Below are positions 442 through 9,345 of a DNA stretch of 64,000 bases, piece by piece; position 1 is the first letter of the stretch, and each line of letters begins with the position of its first letter. Position numbers and translations under genes: made by a program. The notes beneath the pieces were generated by a model. The model ran no database searches. It had not been told where the DNA came from and worked only from the letters and a program-made list of their open reading frames with translations. The DNA is from Achromobacter spanius (GTDB lineage Bacteria; Pseudomonadota; Gammaproteobacteria; Burkholderiales; Burkholderiaceae_B), in contig NZ_CP121261.1 of NCBI RefSeq assembly GCF_029637605.1, forward strand, positions 2,108,001 to 2,172,000, given 5' to 3'.

Positions 442-1760
442 AGGCGGCGGTTATTGGTGCGGGCTGGGCCGGCTTGGCGGCCAGCATCGCCCTGCGTGAA
501 GCCGGCGCCAAGGTCACGGTGTTTGAAGCCGGCCACACACCGGGCGGCCGCGCCCGCCGCGTATTCCATGAATCATTCGACGCCCCGCTGGACAACGGCC
601 AGCACCTGCTGGCGGGCGCCTACCGGCAAACGCTGGCGCTGATGCGCCGCGTGGGCCGCAACCCCGACGCCCTGCTGATGCGCCGGCCGCTGCGGCTGGC
701 CAGCCTGGATGGCCGCTTCCGCTTGTCCGCCCCCCGGCTGCCCGCGCCCTTGCACATGGCGGTTGCCATCCTGCGTGCACGCGGCCTGACCTGGGCCGAC
801 CGCTATGCCGCGCTGCGCCTGATGCGCGGCCTGAAAGCCATGTCGTGGTCGCCTCCGCGCGACTGGACCGTGCTGCAACTGCTGCACTATCACGTGCAAT
901 CCGATGTACTGATCCGCCAGCTCTGGGAACCGCTGTGCCTGGCCGCGCTGAACACGCCTTGCGCCACCGCCAGCGCCGCGCTGTTTGCGCGTGTGCTGCG
1001 CGATAGCCTGGCGGGCGCCCGTGAAGACAGCGACCTTCTTCTGCCCTGCACCGATTTGTCGGCGCTCTGGCCAGACGCTGCCGCGCGCCAAGTCACCATG
1101 CGCTATGGCAACACAGTGCGCCAACTGCATCCCTCGGCTGACGGCATCGTCGTCAACCAGGAACGCTTTGATGCCGCCGTGCTGGCCGTGCCGCCCACCT
1201 ATGCCGCCCGGCTACTGGACGCGCCCTTGCGCGAGGCCGGCGCCATCGGCTTGCTGGAAGCGCTGAAGGCATTCGACTACCTGCCGATCGCCACGCTGAA
1301 CGTGCGCCTGGCCGAGCCCTGGCGCTTGCCGGAACCCATGATGATGCTGCGCGAGGAAACCGCGCGCGGGCACGTCGGGCAGTGGGTGTTCGACCGCGCG
1401 CAATTGGCGGGCGACACCAAGGCCGGCGAACTGGCCGTGGTGGCCAGCGCCGCCACCCGCATCGCGGAACGCAACCGGCGCCAGGTCATCGAAGCGTTGA
1501 TCGATCAGGTTGCCGAACAGGCGGCGCGCCACCCCGCGCGCCTGCCCGCCATGCCGGAAGTGACGGCCGCCGAACTCTTGATTGAAAAGCGCGCCACCTT
1601 TGCCGCGGTGCCGGGCCTGACGCGGCCGCTGAACACCACGCCGTGGCCCACCCTGGCGCTGGCGGGCGACTGGACCGACACGGGCTACCCCGGGGTATTG
1701 GAAGGCGCCGTGCAAAGCGGCCTGCAGGCGGCTCGCGTATTGAATCCCCGCGCGAATTGA
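438..1760 (+). CDS. hpnE: Hydroxysqualene dehydroxylase HpnE
   Basis: This is a 440-residue FAD-dependent amine-oxidase-fold protein. The N-terminus carries a dinucleotide-binding Rossmann motif G7-x-G9-x-x-G12, and the C-terminus has the second FAD contact around LALAGDWTDTGYPGVLEGA, as in phytoene desaturases and HpnE. The family reduces hydroxysqualene to squalene. I chose the GTG at 438 because it overlaps the hpnD stop by four bases (GTGA) and starts immediately before the Rossmann strand; the frame is open further upstream but that would add residues not expected in the family. Translational coupling with hpnD suggests one squalene operon, with hpnC presumably upstream of the window. 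Confidence 0.88.
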   Translation: MKAAVIGAGWAGLAASIALREAGAKVTVFEAGHTPGGRARRVFHESFDAPLDNGQHLLAGAYRQTLALMRRVGRNPDALLMRRPLRLASLDGRFRLSAPRLPAPLHMAVAILRARGLTWADRYAALRLMRGLKAMSWSPPRDWTVLQLLHYHVQSDVLIRQLWEPLCLAALNTPCATASAALFARVLRDSLAGAREDSDLLLPCTDLSALWPDAAARQVTMRYGNTVRQLHPSADGIVVNQERFDAAVLAVPPTYAARLLDAPLREAGAIGLLEALKAFDYLPIATLNVRLAEPWRLPEPMMMLREETARGHVGQWVFDRAQLAGDTKAGELAVVASAATRIAERNRRQVIEALIDQVAEQAARHPARLPAMPEVTAAELLIEKRATFAAVPGLTRPLNTTPWPTLALAGDWTDTGYPGVLEGAVQSGLQAARVLNPRAN

Positions 1761-1775
1761 GTCGCTGCTGTTCTT

Positions 1776-2168
1776 TCAGCGCAATACATGCACGGTGGCG
1801 ATGCCCGCCGCCGTCAACGCCAACGACCCCACCAGGCTGATGCCCGCATAGCCCAACGCGGTGCCGTAGGCGCCGCGCTCCAGCATGGACACGGTTTCGG
1901 CCGAGAACGTGGAGAACGTGGTCAAGGCGCCCATGAAACCCGTAATGACCCCCAGCCGAATCCACGTCGGCCATTCGGGATGGCCCGCCACCAGCGCCAG
2001 CGCCACACCCACCAGATAGCCCCCCGCCAGATTCACGGTGAACGTGCCCCAGGGCCAGGATTCAACGTTCAACCACATGCTGACCAGCCAGCGTGTCCAC
2101 GCGCCCAACACGGCACCCAGGCCCACGGCCAGGAAATTCAGCGGAATCAAGGTTTGGTATACGGACAT
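1776..2168 (-). CDS. crcB: Fluoride ion channel CrcB/Fluc
   Basis: A 130-residue four-helix membrane protein that as a dual-topology dimer exports fluoride. The signature GALTTFSTFSAE, with the phenylalanine and threonine/serine residues that line the fluoride path, is present, as is the conserved asparagine in TFTVNLAGGYLVG. The ATG at 2168 gives the usual family length; an upstream in-frame ATG would add a cysteine-rich, unlike-family leader. It converges on hpnE with 15 bases between stops. I looked for a fluoride riboswitch in the 240 bases upstream and did not find a convincing one. Confidence 0.9.
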   Translation of the reverse strand: MSVYQTLIPLNFLAVGLGAVLGAWTRWLVSMWLNVESWPWGTFTVNLAGGYLVGVALALVAGHPEWPTWIRLGVITGFMGALTTFSTFSAETVSMLERGAYGTALGYAGISLVGSLALTAAGIATVHVLR

Positions 2169-2334
2169 GAGCGTTGGGGCGTCAGGCCAAGCCGGACGCC
2201 AAGCAAAAGACCAGCAGCAGCATAACCCGCGCCTCCTCAAATCTGGCTGAAAAACTCAAGCCGCTCGACCCTGCCCGGCCCTTGATGCCCACGTTCTACG
2301 CGGCCGCGAAACGTCGAAATCAATTGAAATCACC

Positions 2335-2376
2335 TTGCGCGCGCGACCCTGCCTTTTATAAGAGTAATTCTCATTA
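2335..2376 (+). promoter_or_regulatory. Candidate promoter overlapped by a Fur box
   Basis: A TTGCGC hexamer at 2335-2340 and TATAAG at 2357-2362 are separated by 16 bases. A Fur-like site overlaps the -10: read on the minus strand, 2359-2373 is TGAGAATTACTCTTA, matching 10 of 14 arms of the 7-1-7 Fur consensus TGATAATnATTATCA. The predicted start lies about 40 bases before the ATG at 2412. Iron repression of the downstream redox operon is inferred from this site; it has not been tested here. Confidence 0.6.
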
Positions 2377-2411
2377 AATGTTAGAATCCGCCGCTTCAAA
2401 CCGAATCCCGC

Positions 2412-3038
2412 ATGGACAGTCAACCCACTCCGAAGCGTCGGGCCTACTGGCTCAAGACCTTGCATCAATGGCACTGGATCAGCTCCGCGCTATGCCTGCT
2501 GGGCATGCTGCTGTTTGCCATTACCGGCCTTACGCTGAACAACGCTTCGCACATTGAATCCAAGGCGGTGGTCACCACCCGCCAGGCGCAATTGCCCGAA
2601 CCTGTGCGGAAGCAGTTGACAGCGCCGCCCAAGCAGAAGAAGGCGGCCTTGCCGCCCCCCGTGGCGCAATGGCTGGACGACACCTTCGATGCCGGGGCAG
2701 CGGGCAAAACGGCCGAATGGTCGGCCGACGAGATCTATCTGTCCTTGCCCCGCGCGGGCGGCGACGCCTGGTTGTCCATCGACCTGGCCAGCGGCGACGT
2801 CGAATACGAACGCACCGATCGCGGCTGGATTTCCTACCTGAACGATTTGCACAAGGGCCGCAATACGGGCCTTGCCTGGAGCTGGTTCCTGGACATCTTC
2901 GCCGTTGCCTGTCTGGTCTTTTCGCTGACCGGTCTGGTGCTGTTGAAGATGCATGCCGGCAACCGTGGCGCGACCTGGCCCATGGTGGGGCTGGGCGTCG
3001 TGATCCCCGTCGTCCTGGCGCTGCTCTTCATCCACTGA
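2412..3038 (+). CDS. PepSY-associated membrane protein, first gene of flavin redox operon
   Basis: A 208-residue protein with a short N-terminal cytoplasmic segment, a first membrane helix at about residues 23-43, a periplasmic stretch of about 110 residues, and two closing helices at about 158-180 and 187-207. Histidines at the start of helix 1 (LHQWHW) and before helix 2 (LNDLHKGR) resemble the haem/metal positions of PepSY-TM ferric reductase-like proteins. The family is found with siderophore and iron reduction genes and with extracytosolic flavinylated proteins. Here it is followed by DUF2271, DUF4198, ApbE and a flavoreductase, so I infer that it passes electrons across the inner membrane. 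No strong ribosome-binding site precedes the ATG. A precise acceptor cannot be named. Confidence 0.75.
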   Translation: MDSQPTPKRRAYWLKTLHQWHWISSALCLLGMLLFAITGLTLNNASHIESKAVVTTRQAQLPEPVRKQLTAPPKQKKAALPPPVAQWLDDTFDAGAAGKTAEWSADEIYLSLPRAGGDAWLSIDLASGDVEYERTDRGWISYLNDLHKGRNTGLAWSWFLDIFAVACLVFSLTGLVLLKMHAGNRGATWPMVGLGVVIPVVLALLFIH

Positions 3039-3066
3039 TTCCTTCGATCCGCCCCTGGAGATTTCC

Positions 3067-3582
3067 ATGCGCAAACTGTTGTTGTCGGCCTTGCTGGCCG
3101 GCGCCATCGCCCGAACGGCCAATGCAGCCGACATCGGCCTGTCCATCGAGGTGCCGCGCCTGGATGTGGCCGAATACCACCGCCCCTACGTGGCGATCTG
3201 GATCGAAAACGCCGACCAGAGCGTGGCCGCCGACCTGGCCGTCTGGTACGACGTGGCCAAGAAGAACAACGAAGGCACCGAGTGGCTCAAGGACATGCGC
3301 CAGTGGTGGCGCCGCAGCGGCCGCAACCAGCAGTTTCCGGTGGATGGCGTCAGCGGCGCGACCAAGCCCGTGGGCAAGCATGCGCTGAACTTCGACGCAT
3401 CCTCCAAGCCGTTGGCCTCGCTCAAGCCCGGCCAATACGCCGTGGTGGTGGAAGCGGCGCGCGAAGTTGGCGGCCGCGAATTGCTGCGCATTCCTTTCCA
3501 GTGGCCGCCGCAAAAGGCTGAGCAACTGACAGCGCAAGGCGAACACGAACTGGGCGCCATCGCGCTCAACCTCAAACCCTGA
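3067..3582 (+). CDS. DUF2271 protein with predicted FMN-attachment site
   Basis: A 171-residue exported protein with a signal peptide ending about residue 20 (TANA-AD). After a beta-rich region with conserved tryptophans (WIENAD, WYDVAKKN) comes DGVSGAT at residues 93-99. This fits the ApbE recognition pattern D-x-x-(S/T)-G-A-T, in which the final threonine (here Thr99, codon 3361-3363) accepts FMN through a phosphodiester bond. An apbE gene lies two genes downstream, which supports real flavinylation. DUF2271 proteins have been reported among extracytosolic flavinylated proteins. The ATG is preceded by CTGGAG. The inferred role is a periplasmic flavin electron carrier fed by the PepSY protein and the flavoreductase. 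Confidence 0.78.
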   Translation: MRKLLLSALLAGAIARTANAADIGLSIEVPRLDVAEYHRPYVAIWIENADQSVAADLAVWYDVAKKNNEGTEWLKDMRQWWRRSGRNQQFPVDGVSGATKPVGKHALNFDASSKPLASLKPGQYAVVVEAAREVGGRELLRIPFQWPPQKAEQLTAQGEHELGAIALNLKP

Positions 3583-3613
3583 TGCCCACCCCTTGCCTTC
3601 AAGGAACACGAAC

Positions 3614-4414
3614 ATGAAATCCGCCGCCAAACTGGCCGCCGCCCTGGCGCTGTGCCTGCCTTTCGCCGCCCACGCGCATGATGTGTGGATGGTGCCGTCG
3701 TCGACCGTGCTGTCGGGAACCGATAGCTGGATCACCGTCGACGCCGCCGTCGGCAACGACAAGTTCTATTTCAACCACGCGCCGCTGCGCCTGGACGGCC
3801 TGGCCATCGTCGCGCCGGATGGCAGCACCGCCGACGCCGAAAACATCAACCGCGGCAAGCTGCGCAGCACCTTCGACCTGCAGCTCAAGCAAAGCGGCAC
3901 GTACCGCGTGGCGGTCGTCAACGACGGCGTGTTCGCGCGCTGGAAAGAAGACGGCAAGAACAAGCGCTACTTCGGCAAGGTGGAAGGCATGGCGCAAGCC
4001 GTGCCCGCCAACGCGCAAGAGCTTGAGGTATCGCAAAGCCTGGGCCGCGTGGAAACCTTCGTCACGGCGGGCAAGCCCAGCACCGTCAAGCCCGTAGGCC
4101 GTGGCCTGGAACTGGCGCCTGTCACGCACCCGAACGACTTGTTCACGGACGAGGCGGCCACCTTCCAGATGCTCCTGGATGGCCAGCCCGCCGCCAACCT
4201 GGAAGTGAACGTGGTGCCCGGCGGCAGCCGCTATCGCGACAAGGTCGGCGAGATCAAGCTCAGCACCGACAAGGACGGCAAGTTCTCGGTCAAGTGGCCG
4301 CAGCCTGGCTTGTACTGGATTGAAGCCGGCATGGAAGACGCCAAGGTCAGCGTGCCGCAGGCGAAGAAGCGCCGCCTGTCCTACGCCGGCACCGTCGAAG
4401 TGCTGCAACCCTAA
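3614..4414 (+). CDS. DUF4198 periplasmic protein
   Basis: A 266-residue protein with a clear signal peptide (about residues 1-20, ending HAHA or just before). The mature N-terminus starts with AHDVWMVPS, the histidine-containing signature of DUF4198, a beta-sandwich family related to periplasmic metal-handling proteins such as NikK-type components. The C-terminal half has a second Ig-like region that ends in WPQPGLYWIEAGME. AAGGA seven bases before the ATG at 3614 fixes the start. It lies between the flavinylated DUF2271 protein and apbE, 31 bases after the former. A role in binding iron or another metal for reduction is plausible but inferred from context only. Confidence 0.75.
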   Translation: MKSAAKLAAALALCLPFAAHAHDVWMVPSSTVLSGTDSWITVDAAVGNDKFYFNHAPLRLDGLAIVAPDGSTADAENINRGKLRSTFDLQLKQSGTYRVAVVNDGVFARWKEDGKNKRYFGKVEGMAQAVPANAQELEVSQSLGRVETFVTAGKPSTVKPVGRGLELAPVTHPNDLFTDEAATFQMLLDGQPAANLEVNVVPGGSRYRDKVGEIKLSTDKDGKFSVKWPQPGLYWIEAGMEDAKVSVPQAKKRRLSYAGTVEVLQP

Positions 4415-4427
4415 GCAGGACGATCGC

Positions 4428-5501
4428 GTGCCGGTTGCTCCGTCCTATGCGCCTGGCGGCACGGCGGCCCCCGTCGTGCGCGTGGCCTATGGCGCCATGC
4501 CCGCGCCGTTGCCCGCCCTGGCGGCGTTGGCGGGTGCGACCATGGGCACCACCTGGTCCGCGCGCATGGCCTTGCCCGCCGGGTGCCGCGAGGACGCAGC
4601 GCGGCGCGCCGTCCAGGCCGCGTTGGACGAGGTGGTGGCGCAGATGAGCACCTGGGAATCGGTGTCCGACATCACGCGCTTCAACCAGGCGGCGCCCGGT
4701 TGGCTGGCACTGCCGGATGGCTTCTTCCATGTGCTGCGCCATGCCATGGCGTTGGCCGAGGACAGCGGCGGCGCCTACGATCCCACGGTGGGCCCGCTGG
4801 TCAATGCCTGGGGCTTCGGCCCGCATCAGCGCGCCTTCGAGCCGCCCTCGCCCGCCGCCATCGACACTGCCCGCGCGCGCTGCGGATGGCAGCGCGTGCG
4901 GCTGGATACCGCGCGGCAGGCGGCGTATCAGCCGGGCGGCGCGTATCTGGACCTGTCATCCATTGCCAAGGGCTATGGCGTCGACCGCGCCGCGCTGGCG
5001 TTGGACGCGCTGGGCATCACGCAGTACCTGGTGGAAGTGGGCGGCGAACTACGTGCGCGGGGCAAGCGGCCCGACGGCCAGCCCTGGCGCGTGGCGATTG
5101 AAGTGCCCGATGCCAGCGACGACCACGCGCTGGCCTTGCCACTGCACGACCACAGCATCGCCACGTCGGGCGATTATCGGCGCCACGCCGGTAGCGGCGA
5201 CGCGCGCTATGCCCACACCATCGACCCGCGCACCGGGCGCCCGGTGCGCAATAACGTGGCGTCGGTGACGGTGCTGCACCGCGAATGCATGCAGGCCGAC
5301 GCGCTGGCCACCGTGCTGACGGTGCTGGGCGAAGCGGACGGCCTGGCCTATGCTCGCCGCCAAAACCTGGCGGCCCTGTTCATCCTGCGCGACGCCCACG
5401 ACTACCGCGTCGTTGCGACCCCGGCATTCGAGGCACTGGCCCAGCCCCAGGCCCAGGTCCAGACCCGGCCCCAGCCCCTGCCGCAGGCACAGGCGCGCTG
5501 A
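4428..5501 (+). CDS. apbE: FAD:protein FMN transferase ApbE
   Basis: A 357-residue ApbE-family enzyme that moves FMN from FAD onto a threonine of a target protein. The N-terminal GATMGTTWS, the central DLSSIAKGYGVDRAA and VEVGGELRARG, the HTIDPRTGRPV segment and the C-terminal ADALATVLTVLG are the standard family motifs for flavin and Mg2+ binding. I chose the GTG at 4428: AGCAGGA lies seven bases upstream, and the gene then begins 13 bases after the DUF4198 stop. Unlike most ApbE proteins, no lipoprotein or other signal peptide is evident from this start. The C-terminus ends in a proline/glutamine-rich tail. The likely target is the DGVSGAT site of the DUF2271 protein in the same operon. Confidence 0.9.
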   Translation: MPVAPSYAPGGTAAPVVRVAYGAMPAPLPALAALAGATMGTTWSARMALPAGCREDAARRAVQAALDEVVAQMSTWESVSDITRFNQAAPGWLALPDGFFHVLRHAMALAEDSGGAYDPTVGPLVNAWGFGPHQRAFEPPSPAAIDTARARCGWQRVRLDTARQAAYQPGGAYLDLSSIAKGYGVDRAALALDALGITQYLVEVGGELRARGKRPDGQPWRVAIEVPDASDDHALALPLHDHSIATSGDYRRHAGSGDARYAHTIDPRTGRPVRNNVASVTVLHRECMQADALATVLTVLGEADGLAYARRQNLAALFILRDAHDYRVVATPAFEALAQPQAQVQTRPQPLPQAQAR

Positions 5502-5505
5502 TCCG

Positions 5506-6879
5506 ATGAGCACTACCCGCCTGATCGCCGCCGCATGCGTCATCACGCTATGGCTGCTGCTGTGCCTGTGGGCATGGCGCCGGGCACAGCGGCATAAGGC
5601 GCGGCAGGCCCAGGCCCTGCAAACCCTGAACGCGCCCGCCGCCGACGATGCGCTGCTGGTCGCGTATGCAAGCCAGACGGGCTATGCCGAAACCCTCGCG
5701 GCGCAAACCGCCGAATCCCTGCGGGCGGGCGGCCTGACGGTGCGCGTGGCCGAGCTTGGCCAGTTGGATCTGACCCGCCTGTCCGGCTACCGCCGCATGC
5801 TGTTCGTGGTCAGCACCTATGGCGAAGGTGATCCGCCCGACTCGGCCGCCGCGTTCGCCAGCCAGATGCAGGCCGTGCACACACGCGCGCTGGCCGGCGC
5901 GCAAACCGCCGTGCTGGCGCTGGGCGACAGCGAATACGCGCAGTTCTGCGGCTTCGGGCATCAGCTTGATGACTGGCTGCATGCGCAAGGCGCCACGCCG
6001 CTGTTCGACCTGGTGGAAGTGGACAACGACGACCCCGCCGCGCTGCGCCACTGGCAACATCATCTGGGCCTGCTGGCGGGCCGAAGCGACCTGCCCGATT
6101 GGCAGGCCCCGGTCTACGAACCCTGGCGGCTGGCGGCGCGCACGCTGCTGAACCCCGGCAGCCAGGGCAACCCGTGCTACTTGCTGACGCTTGCGCCGCC
6201 AACCGGCCAACCCGCGCGCTGGCAGGCCGGCGATATCGCGGAAATTGGGCCGCGCCTGATACGCGGCGGCCCGCTGCAAACGCACCGCGAATATTCCATT
6301 GCGTCGCTGCCGCAAGACGGCGCCATCGACCTGCTGGTGCGCCTGATGCGCAGCGCGGACGGCGGCCTGGGCGTGGGCAGCGGCTGGTTGACGCACGTGG
6401 CGCAGGTCGGCGAGCAGATTGACCTGCGCGTGCGAAGCAACCGCAACTTCCATGCGCCCGAGGATGCGCGCCCGATGATCCTGGTGGGCAACGGCACCGG
6501 GCTGGCCGGGCTGCGTGCGCTGATCAAGGCCCGCCGCGCGGCGGGCCATCGGCGCAACTGGCTGATATTCGGCGAGCGCAACGCCGCGCATGACGACTTC
6601 TGCCGCGACGACATCACCGCCTGGCGCGAAGACGGCACGCTGGAACGGGTGGACACGGTCTATTCGCGCGACCAGCCCCAACGCCGCTACGTGCAGCACG
6701 TGCTGCGCGAAGAAGCCGCCACCTTACGGCAATGGGTGGCGGCGGGCGCCGCGATCTATGTCTGCGGCAGCCTGCAAGGCATGGCCGCCGGCGTGGACGC
6801 CGCACTGGAAGACATCCTGGGCATCGAGCCCCTGCAGGCAATGCTGCACGCCGGCCGTTACCGGCGCGACGTGTACTAG
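5506..6879 (+). CDS. Membrane-anchored flavodoxin/ferredoxin-reductase fusion (CysJ/CPR-like)
   Basis: A 457-residue diflavin reductase with an N-terminal membrane helix (about residues 5-23), a flavodoxin domain (about 46-190; FMN loop ASQTGYAE, then STYGEGDPPD and LGDSEYAQFCGFG), an FAD domain with the REYSIAS binding motif (about 265) and an NAD(P)-binding domain with VGNGTGLAGLRAL and VCGSLQGMAAG. Such proteins take hydride from NADPH and release single electrons through FMN. The start lies four bases after the apbE stop. It is the probable cytoplasmic electron donor for the operon. It is a sulfite-reductase flavoprotein relative, but no hemoprotein partner is nearby, so a cysJ name would be misleading. 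Confidence 0.85.
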   Translation: MSTTRLIAAACVITLWLLLCLWAWRRAQRHKARQAQALQTLNAPAADDALLVAYASQTGYAETLAAQTAESLRAGGLTVRVAELGQLDLTRLSGYRRMLFVVSTYGEGDPPDSAAAFASQMQAVHTRALAGAQTAVLALGDSEYAQFCGFGHQLDDWLHAQGATPLFDLVEVDNDDPAALRHWQHHLGLLAGRSDLPDWQAPVYEPWRLAARTLLNPGSQGNPCYLLTLAPPTGQPARWQAGDIAEIGPRLIRGGPLQTHREYSIASLPQDGAIDLLVRLMRSADGGLGVGSGWLTHVAQVGEQIDLRVRSNRNFHAPEDARPMILVGNGTGLAGLRALIKARRAAGHRRNWLIFGERNAAHDDFCRDDITAWREDGTLERVDTVYSRDQPQRRYVQHVLREEAATLRQWVAAGAAIYVCGSLQGMAAGVDAALEDILGIEPLQAMLHAGRYRRDVY

Positions 6880-6913
6880 CCCCGCTTTACCGGGTACTCC
6901 AGGCCGGCTGTTC

Positions 6914-7873
6914 TTACTGCAGCTTGATCTGCGCGCGGTCGATCACCGTCTTCCAGCGGTCGCGCTCGTTGCGGATCTGCTCGCCGAATTCAGCCGGGGT
7001 ATTACCCAGCGGAAATGCGCCCGTCTCTTCCATCTTGGCGGCCGTGGCCGGGTCCCGCATGGCTTGTGCGAAGGCTTGCGCCAACTTGTCGCGCACGTCG
7101 GCCGGCATGCCCGCTGGACCCACCACGCCATACCAGGCGGTAACGTCGTAGTCCTTGTAGCCTTGCTCGGCAAACGTCGGCACATCCGGCAGGCGCGGGT
7201 TGCGCTGCGCGCCCGTGATGGCCAGCGCGTGCAGATGCTTGCTCTTGATGTAGGGCAGCGACGACGGGAAGTTGTCGAAGATCACCGGCACCACACCGCC
7301 CACCGCGTCGGTCAGCGCGGGCGCCGAACCCCGGTAAGAAATGCTGTTCATCTTGCCGCCGATCAGTTGCAGAAACCAGATCATGCCCAGGTCATTCACA
7401 CCGCCCGCGCCGGCGTTGGCGTAGCCGTCCTTGTTCGGATTGGCGCGCACGTGCTCAACGAACTCGGCCAGGGTCTTCGCCGGGTAGCTCGGGTTGACGC
7501 TAAGGATGTTGGGGCTGGTGACCAGGTTGCTGATGGGCGTGAAGTCCTTGATCGGGTCATACCCCAGCTTGGGGAACAGGTGCGGCGCGGTGCCGTGGGT
7601 GCTGACGGTGGCCAGCCCCACGGTGTAGCCGTCCGGCTTGGCCCGCGCGGTAGCCATCATGCCGATGGTGCCGGACGCGCCCGTGCGGTTTTCCACCACG
7701 ATCTGCTGGCCCAGGATCTCGCCCGCTTTCGCCGCCGCCACCCGCCCGACGATGTCGGTGGGGCCGCCGGCCGAAAACGGCACGATCAAGGTAATGGGAT
7801 GGTCCGGAAACGCGGCGTGGGCGGTGGGCAGCACGGCGGCCAGCGCCATGGCAATCAGAGTCTTGCGCATCAT
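6914..7873 (-). CDS. Tripartite tricarboxylate (Bug) solute-binding receptor
   Basis: A 319-residue periplasmic binding protein with a signal peptide ending at about residue 20 (AHA-AFPDHPI). The family signatures are present: an N-terminal strand ITLIVPFSAGGPTDIVGR, then VVENRTGASGTIG, and a C-terminal EFGEQIRNERDRWKTVID helix. Bug receptors usually bind carboxylates or amino acid derivatives with ligand carboxyl groups held by loops and water. Its ATG overlaps the stop of the upstream N-acyl-D-amino-acid deacylase (ATGA), with AAGGAGAT upstream, so both form one operon. The ligand is probably an acylated or D-amino acid; no TctA/TctB membrane genes are present, so it may act with a distant transporter or in sensing. 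Confidence 0.88.
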   Translation of the reverse strand: MMRKTLIAMALAAVLPTAHAAFPDHPITLIVPFSAGGPTDIVGRVAAAKAGEILGQQIVVENRTGASGTIGMMATARAKPDGYTVGLATVSTHGTAPHLFPKLGYDPIKDFTPISNLVTSPNILSVNPSYPAKTLAEFVEHVRANPNKDGYANAGAGGVNDLGMIWFLQLIGGKMNSISYRGSAPALTDAVGGVVPVIFDNFPSSLPYIKSKHLHALAITGAQRNPRLPDVPTFAEQGYKDYDVTAWYGVVGPAGMPADVRDKLAQAFAQAMRDPATAAKMEETGAFPLGNTPAEFGEQIRNERDRWKTVIDRAQIKLQ

Positions 7874-9345
7874 GATGGGTTGATCTCCTTGGGGGTGTTG
7901 TTGTGAGCGGCCTCGCGCCGCAGTATCTTGCCGGGCCGCGTCATGCCCGGCGTCGCGGGAAACACCGGCTGGCCATTGACCAGCACGTGCTCAACGCCGA
8001 TAGAAGGCAGCGTGGGCGCGTCCCAGGTGGCGCGGTCGGCCACGGTATCCGCGTCGAACACCACCACATCCGCCCAAGCGCCCACGCTGAGTTGTCCGCG
8101 TCCGGCCAGGCCGAATACGCGCGCGGGCAAGGCCGTCATCTTGGCCACGGCTGCTTCCAGCGTCAGCAGTTGGGCTTCGCGCACATAGCGGCCCAGCACC
8201 CGCGTGAAGCTGCCCCACAGGCGGGGATGCGGATGCGCGTCGTTGGGCAGGCCGTCCGAACCAACCATGCAGCATTCGTGTTTGAAGATGCGCTGCACCT
8301 CGGCTTCGTCCATCGCGAAATAAATCGCGCCGGCAGGGCAAAGGCGCTGCGCGGCCTCGGTCTTGTCGCAGCCCCAGCGCGCGGCGATATCGGTCAGTGT
8401 TTCGCCGCTGCATTCGGGATGCGGCACCGACCACGTGATGCGGATGTCGTCGATGCTGTCGGCGCGTTCGGGGATCAGGATCGTTGAGCTGCCCGGATAC
8501 GGATAGATGTCCAGCGCCACGTCGATGCCCTCGGCGCGAGCCCGGTCGATGTTGGCCAGCGTGGCGCGGCTTTTTCCCCAGTTGCGCGGCATCATGCATT
8601 TGTGGTGCGACAGCACCGTGGCGCAACCCGTGTTGCGGCCCACGGACAGCACTTCGTCCACCGCGGCCTCGACCTCGTCGCCCTCGTTGCGGATGTGGCT
8701 GGTGTGCAGCGCGCCATGGACCGCGGCCACACGCGCCAGGCCGTCCAGTTCCGCTTGTTCGGCCACGCCGCCCGGCTGGTAGGCCAGCCCCGTGCTGAAG
8801 CCCACCGCGCCGGCCGTCAGCGCATCGGCCAGCATGCGCTGCATGGCGTCCTGCTCGGCCGGGGTGGGCGCGGCGGAGGGATCGCGCATGGCGGCCAGGC
8901 GCAGGTTGGCGTGGCCGACCAGCGCCGCCACGTTGATCATGGGCTGCTGCGCGCGCAAGGTGTCAAAGTAGGCGTGCATGTCGGCGAACAAGGGCGTTTC
9001 GCCCAGCAGCGCCAGCGCCGCCGCCGTGTTGCCGGGCAAGGGCGCGGGCGCGCCGCTGACCCCGCAATTGCCCACCACCACCGACGTGATGCCCTGGCTG
9101 GTCTTCCATTCCAGGCCCGGCTTTTCCACGAACATCAGGTCATCGTGGCCGTGCGAATCAATAAAGCCCGGCGCCACGATCTTGCCGTGCGCCGCCACTC
9201 GGCGCGCGGCGCTTGCGCCCGACAGGTCGCCAATGGCTGCGATGCGTTCGCCCGCCACGCCCACGTCCGCGCGTAGCCTGGGGCCGCCCAGGCCATCGAT
9301 GACCCAGCCGCCTTCAATGATCAGATCCAACTGTTCCTGCCGCAT
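7870..9345 (-). CDS. N-acyl-D-amino-acid deacylase (D-aminoacylase)
   Basis: A 491-residue amidohydrolase-superfamily enzyme. The N-terminal beta domain leads into the metal motif PGFIDSHGHDD at about residue 58-68, followed by GITSVVVGNCGVSGAP with the metal-bridging cysteine typical of D-aminoacylases, HTSHIRNEGDEV, SHHKC and the MVGSDGLPNDAHPHPRLWGSF signature. The family hydrolyses N-acyl-D-amino acids to D-amino acid plus carboxylate, using one or two zinc ions. It is transcribed with the downstream Bug receptor and lies divergent from a LysR gene, 89 bases away, which probably regulates it. The exact D-amino acid preference cannot be read from the sequence. Confidence 0.88.
   Translation of the reverse strand: MRQEQLDLIIEGGWVIDGLGGPRLRADVGVAGERIAAIGDLSGASAARRVAAHGKIVAPGFIDSHGHDDLMFVEKPGLEWKTSQGITSVVVGNCGVSGAPAPLPGNTAAALALLGETPLFADMHAYFDTLRAQQPMINVAALVGHANLRLAAMRDPSAAPTPAEQDAMQRMLADALTAGAVGFSTGLAYQPGGVAEQAELDGLARVAAVHGALHTSHIRNEGDEVEAAVDEVLSVGRNTGCATVLSHHKCMMPRNWGKSRATLANIDRARAEGIDVALDIYPYPGSSTILIPERADSIDDIRITWSVPHPECSGETLTDIAARWGCDKTEAAQRLCPAGAIYFAMDEAEVQRIFKHECCMVGSDGLPNDAHPHPRLWGSFTRVLGRYVREAQLLTLEAAVAKMTALPARVFGLAGRGQLSVGAWADVVVFDADTVADRATWDAPTLPSIGVEHVLVNGQPVFPATPGMTRPGKILRREAAHNNTPKEINPS

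Follow-up and report, generated by a model that had tools for sequence, protein, structure and literature searches.

The closest described relative of the system treated here is the Caulobacter crescentus operon CC_3059-3063 (CCNA_03155-03159), whose expression in lacZ assays rises when iron is low or fur is mutated, whose promoter is bound by Fur in an electrophoretic mobility shift assay (PMC3751524), and in which transposon insertions lower fitness in ethylenediaminetetraacetic acid (PMC12004947). More broadly, a survey counted 3220 PepSY-like clusters, of which 2833 contain DUF2271 and 1500 contain DUF4198, and such flavinylation clusters have been linked to Fur and to iron reduction (Meheust et al. 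2021; PMC8238504). In the same paper, the DUF2271 protein of A. ursilacus is flavinylated by its ApbE, a flavin adenine dinucleotide (FAD):protein flavin mononucleotide (FMN) transferase, at an [S/T]GA[S/T] motif. Here, we analyse a five-gene operon of this kind in a stretch of 64,000 nucleotides (the window) of Achromobacter spanius contig NZ_CP121261.1, part of a one-contig genome of 6.47 Mb. We propose that it is very probably a Fur-repressed operon for an inner-membrane electron path that reduces a periplasmic metal, most likely ferric iron.

The operon belongs to an already described type of system. Its gene set is known from Caulobacter CC_3059-3063, which it resembles in the five gene types, in their order and in a Fur-type site overlapping promoter elements (possible ones here), with iron regulation in Caulobacter (PMC3751524), and the surveyed clusters likewise bring PepSY_TM, DUF2271, DUF4198 and ApbE together (PMC8238504). 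Here too, a PF16357/PF03929 gene stands beside ApbE and DUF2271 genes of which at least one carries an export signal, the arrangement by which such clusters are recognised. An earlier interpretation of the window from its letters (the sequence-only reading) had held that the pathway is not biochemically described for this gene set. For the full electron path this stands uncontradicted, as we found no reconstitution of it in the accessible parts of the open-access literature; the gene set itself has been described, in Caulobacter, with Fur, iron and fitness data.

The operon and its products

The five open reading frames lie on the plus strand, separated by 28, 31, 13 and 4 bases, and Pfam assigns their products to PepSY_TM_like_2, DUF2271, DUF4198, ApbE and Flavodoxin_1 plus NAD_binding_1 (Table 1), which bears out the first impression of five tightly spaced genes of these families. 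The label "extracytosolic" given to them at that stage fits DUF2271, DUF4198 and the loop of the PepSY protein, but neither ApbE nor the reductase. The DUF2271 protein is up to 96% identical to proteins of Achromobacter, its nearest named relatives among the matches listed.

In the PepSY protein, His21, His147, His181 and His208 are invariant in all 37 aligned rows. Its structure model (mean predicted local distance difference test score 87.6) has three long helices, at residues 7-47, 153-182 and 186-207, and a mixed domain that separates the first from the second. As in FoxB and VciB, the conserved histidines would be positioned to hold haem at either face of the membrane and the PepSY domain would lie in the periplasm; unlike these proteins, the operon protein has one PepSY-type domain and three helices. 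By analogy with FoxB, it would carry two bis-His haem sites.

The FMN-attachment site that had been read in the DUF2271 protein is well preserved, with Thr99 of DGVSGAT invariant in 16/16 and 39/39 aligned proteins. DGVSGAT contains the [S/T]GA[S/T] motif of DUF2271 proteins flavinylated by ApbE, and attachment of FMN at such a motif is published for one DUF2271 protein (PMC8238504). Going by this motif, the Achromobacter protein is predicted to be flavinylated on Thr99. In some relatives a proline precedes the acceptor threonine (DGVTGPT or DGVTSPT, in loci L081, L083, L086, L087, L174 and others).

The signal peptide of the DUF4198 protein ends directly before His22 (codon 3677-3679), the predicted mature N-terminus, and this histidine is present in 93% of 163 aligned rows. 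The characterised protein IsDUF4198, from a published family of DUF4198 proteins with an N-terminal His, also has this conserved mature residue (PMC12537917).

The last protein aligns with CysJ (6efv) over both modules. Like the CysJ sulfite reductase flavoprotein, it joins a flavodoxin module to a FAD/NADPH module and has the SRDQ motif; unlike CysJ, it is shorter and begins with a hydrophobic stretch, found by reading the sequence, that would anchor it in the membrane. Against the CysJ equivalog TIGR01931 it reaches 231 bits at a cut-off of 668 and is hence CysJ-like, not CysJ. NADPH may fairly be taken as its electron donor because R261, Y263, S264, S387, R388 and Y457 are 98-99% conserved over 126 rows.

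Table 1. Positions of the operon genes, the attachment motif and the upstream elements in the window
Feature	Positions	Strand	Basis
Possible sigma70-type promoter: TTGCGC 2335-2340, 16-base spacer, TATAAG 2357-2362	2335..2362	+	Sequence reading
Fur-like operator TATAAGAGTAATTCTCATT, overlapping the possible -10	2357..2375	+	Pattern match, genome-wide control, relatives
PepSY_TM_like_2 membrane protein, 208 aa	2412..3038	+	Pfam 295 bits, alignment, structure model
DUF2271 protein of 171 aa with a Sec-type signal peptide; predicted to be a flavinylated carrier in the periplasm	3067..3582	+	Pfam 175 bits
FMN-attachment motif DGVSGAT, residues 93-99; Thr99 codon 3361-3363	3343..3363	+	Sequence, alignment
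DUF4198 protein of 266 aa whose signal peptide ends in AHA; likely metal-binding	3614..4414	+	Pfam 201 bits
ApbE FAD:protein FMN transferase, 357 aa, GTG start, no recognisable signal peptide	4428..5501	+	Pfam 295 bits
CysJ-like diflavin reductase of 457 aa with a hydrophobic anchor at the N-terminus	5506..6879	+	Pfam, sequence reading

Distribution

Conservation was followed over 204 loci, namely 46 from the organism's own family, 78 phylum-wide and 80 with named sources (the best 80 of at least 510 confirmed). The named set repeats some of the other loci (L157 = L041, L177 = L050), and the number of distinct genomes is therefore smaller. Among 121 own-family genomes, 46 have DUF2271 (45 over the cut-off); phylum-wide it is found in 81 of 397 (75 over the cut-off). 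The same five-gene order surrounds it at 27/46 own-family, 24/78 phylum-wide and 58/80 named loci. The counts below refer to the 134 loci (32 own-family, 34 phylum-wide and 68 named, given in this order) that have PepSY, DUF2271 and ApbE scoring >200. We also observed a second layout (L065-L078 and most of L139-L156), in which a divergent DUF2271 lies near a signal-less ApbE and a long frame matching the reductase model, of about 720-910 codons in L065-L078.

The Fur-like site

Positions 2357-2375 differ from AATGAGAATNATTCTCATT by 3 mismatches at 18 specified bases. This pattern, which we take to be Fur-like, was chosen with the operon site already in view. The classic Fur 19-mer would by itself not flag the site, since it fits poorly, with 7 mismatches, a value equalled by 70 of 1000 null draws. 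Allowing at most 3 mismatches, AATGAGAATNATTCTCATT is found at 10 sites in the whole genome and its reversed-pattern control at 0. Scanning the 17 proteins that flank the other nine sites placed two of these beside TonB receptors, two beside extracytoplasmic function sigma genes (one with FecR) and one beside an Nramp gene; one more is near a FecR gene and three have no obvious iron gene. With at most 4 mismatches, a site lies upstream of the operon at 26/32, 12/34 and 47/68 loci and is thus common but not universal; simulated upstream sequences yield one at rates of 0.000, 0.003 and 0.000. Chance as the origin of the site was considered and is rejected on the genome-wide control and on its occurrence in other genera.

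The predicted Fur operator is well supported, and the operon is probably switched on by iron shortage. The sequence-only reading had the Fur-like site overlapping a -10 element. The site holds, given the 10 to 0 ratio and the iron genes in whose company the pattern occurs; the -10 fares less well, as a consensus promoter scan of positions 1700-7000 returned no promoter, and both TATAAG and the -35 TTGCGC were picked out by reading.

An ApbE without a recognisable export signal

The operon ApbE matches PF02424 over its full length (294.9 bits, 1-266/266), and its residues D175, K181, D186, H263, D291 and T295 are conserved in 99-100% of 135 rows. Its start is most likely the GTG at 4428. At its N-terminus we found neither the signal peptide nor the lipobox of a typical extracytosolic ApbE.

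Export signals were compared over all loci with a home-made, permissive hydrophobicity score (not SignalP) in which every upstream start codon was tried, at a loose threshold of 1.6 and a strict one of 2.2; the two have to be read together because alanine-rich leaders score lower. ApbE reaches 2.2 at 2/32, 2/34 and 5/68 loci (9/134) and 1.6 at 4/32, 5/34 and 16/68 (25/134), whereas DUF2271 reaches 1.6 at 32/32, 28/34 and 64/68 and 2.2 at 19/32, 7/34 and 33/68. DUF4198 is at or above 1.6 at 32/32, 32/33 and 63/68 loci. Nine of the 10 DUF2271 proteins below 1.6 were judged by eye to have signal peptides; the tenth (L100) is mis-anchored and could not be judged. Among the score-positive ApbEs, that of L080 (2.27) is counted as such, yet looks RVLIP-like and is labelled signal-less in the tree described below. 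Such an RVLIP-like N-terminal stretch takes the place of the signal peptide in the ApbEs of 4/32, 16/34 and 33/68 loci (for example L079, L080, L185, L197, L210 and L228).

A wrongly placed ApbE start that hides a signal was examined and rejected: we scored every in-frame ATG, GTG and TTG up to 75 codons upstream, and public gene calls point the same way, with none of 113 close homologues reaching 2.2 (the best 120 of 4884 matches, 113 of which have the anchoring motif). Controls from other contexts behave differently. The 30 best-scoring ApbE matches of a longer list, less our own locus, gave 29, two of which proved to be DUF2271 operons with unsigned ApbEs; in each of the remaining 27 the N-terminus is of export or lipobox type, judged by a score of at least 2.2 in 22 and by eye in 5. 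ApbEs fused with DUF2271 in one frame reach 1.6 in 6/6 cases.

A tree of 138 ApbE rows (FastTree only, with signal labels assigned by eye, four controls below 250 and the two DUF2271-operon loci being left out) unites the operon ApbEs in one clade (81 rows, support 97) and those of the second layout in another (28 rows, support 100), with 5 changes of signal state overall. Because signal-bearing and signal-less members mix within the operon clade, flavinylation may have moved between compartments on more than one occasion in this family.

The operon ApbE is the sole ApbE in 10 of 11 genomes, including this one (the exception, G265, has two), and a profile search of the Achromobacter genome gave no match to FMN_bind or NQR2_RnfD, the two other substrate families searched. 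In five genomes the PepSY-DUF2271 locus, over the stretch retrieved, contains no apbE. In the four whose ApbE locus was read (G143, G186, G271 and G283), the sole ApbE is a lipoprotein, and the substrate may therefore be served from either side of the membrane in different bacteria; the fifth, G244, has one ApbE.

The compartment of flavinylation

By the usual rule, proteins loaded with cofactor inside the cell leave by the twin-arginine translocation (Tat) pathway and others leave by Sec and are supplied outside, where external ApbEs need external FAD (PMC9973259). Cytosolic ApbEs are known, with cytosolic targets as the examples, including one in Klebsiella (PMC12052999, a 2025 review), and one ApbE of Paracoccus denitrificans (Pden_3291; PMC7660919) is predicted to be cytoplasmic. 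An unsigned ApbE paired with a Sec-type substrate fits neither the Tat/Sec rule nor these cytosolic-target ApbEs. The survey of flavinylation clusters sought export signals and treats flavinylation as extracytosolic; passages of its main text on the subject do not discuss a signal-less ApbE with an exported DUF2271 (PMC8238504). We found no account of this pairing in the accessible open-access literature, although figures and supplements of that survey may show such ApbEs.

The simplest reading, to which we give an even chance, is that ApbE stays in the cytosol and flavinylates the DUF2271 precursor there, ahead of Sec export; the carrier would then already bear its FMN when it crosses the membrane, and no FAD would have to be exported. 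This refines the proposed electron path and is not opposed to it. In its favour are the rarity of ApbE signals at the strict threshold beside DUF2271 proteins that nearly all have one at the loose threshold, the public gene calls, the exported controls, the sole ApbE of 10 of the 11 genomes checked and the missing matches here to the two other substrate families searched. Furthermore, a signal-less DUF2271/ApbE pair co-expressed in E. coli yielded flavinylated protein (PMC8238504). On the other side stand the home-made nature of the score, the higher ApbE counts at 1.6 and the RVLIP-like hydrophobic stretch of many ApbEs. In addition, Sec handles proteins in the unfolded state, and its ability to pass one that bears FMN is hypothetical.

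Export of DUF2271 by Tat was tried as an explanation and rejected: a Tat-like motif occurs in 1/134 proteins and RR within the first 25 residues in 16/134. Of these 16, three (L122, L126 and L226) lie in translated sequence that precedes the probable start and 13 are leaders that begin MRR, for which Tat is not strictly excluded.

Alternatively, ApbE could reach the periplasm by a non-classical route or with an atypical N-terminus and flavinylate DUF2271 there, as in the textbook case. Clear signals do occur in some ApbEs of the same clade (L050, which is from the same genome as L177, and L051, L097, L187, L188, L190 and L205), and periplasmic flavinylation of DUF2271 is likely possible because a lipoprotein is the sole ApbE in the four genomes with an apbE-less locus. 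We nevertheless hold this to be unlikely, as most loci have no hydrophobic core behind any start codon up to 75 codons upstream of the ApbE domain, and we know of no non-classical export route for a signal-less ApbE.

The proposed electron path and its metal

How might the five products act together? Under iron starvation, repression by Fur would be lifted. The membrane-anchored reductase would then take electrons from NADPH and hand them on by way of FAD and FMN. The PepSY protein would move them across the membrane on its two putative bis-His haems, and DUF2271 would receive them on the FMN predicted at Thr99. DUF4198, whose mature form is predicted to begin with His, is probably a metal binder close to where reduction takes place. 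We infer the direction of electron flow, the metal and the route of uptake. This sequence of steps, with ferric iron at its end, had been put forward in the sequence-only reading; it is plausible and agrees with the inference published for such clusters (PMC8238504). Its iron part derives from the Fur-like site and from homologues, not from the proteins' own chemistry, because a characterised DUF4198 protein binds nickel.

Several observations weigh against the proposal or parts of it. The Fur-like site is missing, at up to 4 mismatches, from 22 of the 34 phylum-wide loci. FoxB is not among the listed matches of the PepSY model to solved structures, a result that neither supports nor refutes the haem sites. 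By Pfam, neither of the operon's two neighbours is a TonB receptor or transporter. A profile search of the genome gave no match to FeoB_C, unlike in Caulobacter, which has feoAB (PMC3751524). Candidates for handling Fe(II) are a P19-type protein and, as a side observation, a possible Fe(II) importer encoded by the Nramp gene beside the Fur-like site at C1:2037609-2037627 (L241).

The remaining points concern the metal and favour an operon that serves nickel, cobalt, copper or zinc instead of iron. IsDUF4198 binds Ni2+ (PMC12537917, 2025); that paper, unlike the operon case, has Ni2+ as the metal, and its main text makes no mention of apbe, pepsy or duf2271. For CrpH, a related PepSY_TM protein, there is a link to copper, and CC3060 and CC3061 are listed with lowered expression in a zur mutant (PMC4176598). 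Against another metal speak the Fur-like site with its iron-gene company in this genome and the response of the Caulobacter operon, which iron limitation induces and Fur represses (PMC3751524). We regard another metal as improbable and retain the iron-reducing path.

Finally, we consider it very doubtful that the target of ApbE is a different, cytosolic protein and that DUF2271 is free of flavin in these bacteria: the compartment mismatch between the two and the Klebsiella ApbE with its cytosolic target (PMC12052999) would allow it, but Thr99 is invariant, the two genes share an operon and the genome has no match to the two other substrate families searched.

Neighbouring genes

Directly upstream of the operon lies a CrcB-like fluoride exporter gene (Pfam; 1776-2183, minus strand). 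Beyond the operon's end, on the minus strand and running towards it, are a TctC-type receptor gene (Pfam; within 6914-9345) and a frame (7870-9345) whose sequence, by reading alone, resembles that of an amidohydrolase. The window has no Rfam match and hence no riboswitch match.

Implications

The operon is a well-conserved betaproteobacterial member of a published iron-linked flavinylation system. If FMN is indeed attached in the cytosol before export, the system would break the rule that Sec proteins receive their cofactors outside and that only Tat proteins are loaded inside. An iron-starved cell would then build a metal-reducing path of haem and flavin without exporting FAD, and in many bacteria the flavinylation of periplasmic proteins could do without a FAD exporter. 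This genome, which has a single ApbE and, over the families searched, a single recognisable substrate, would make a clean test case.

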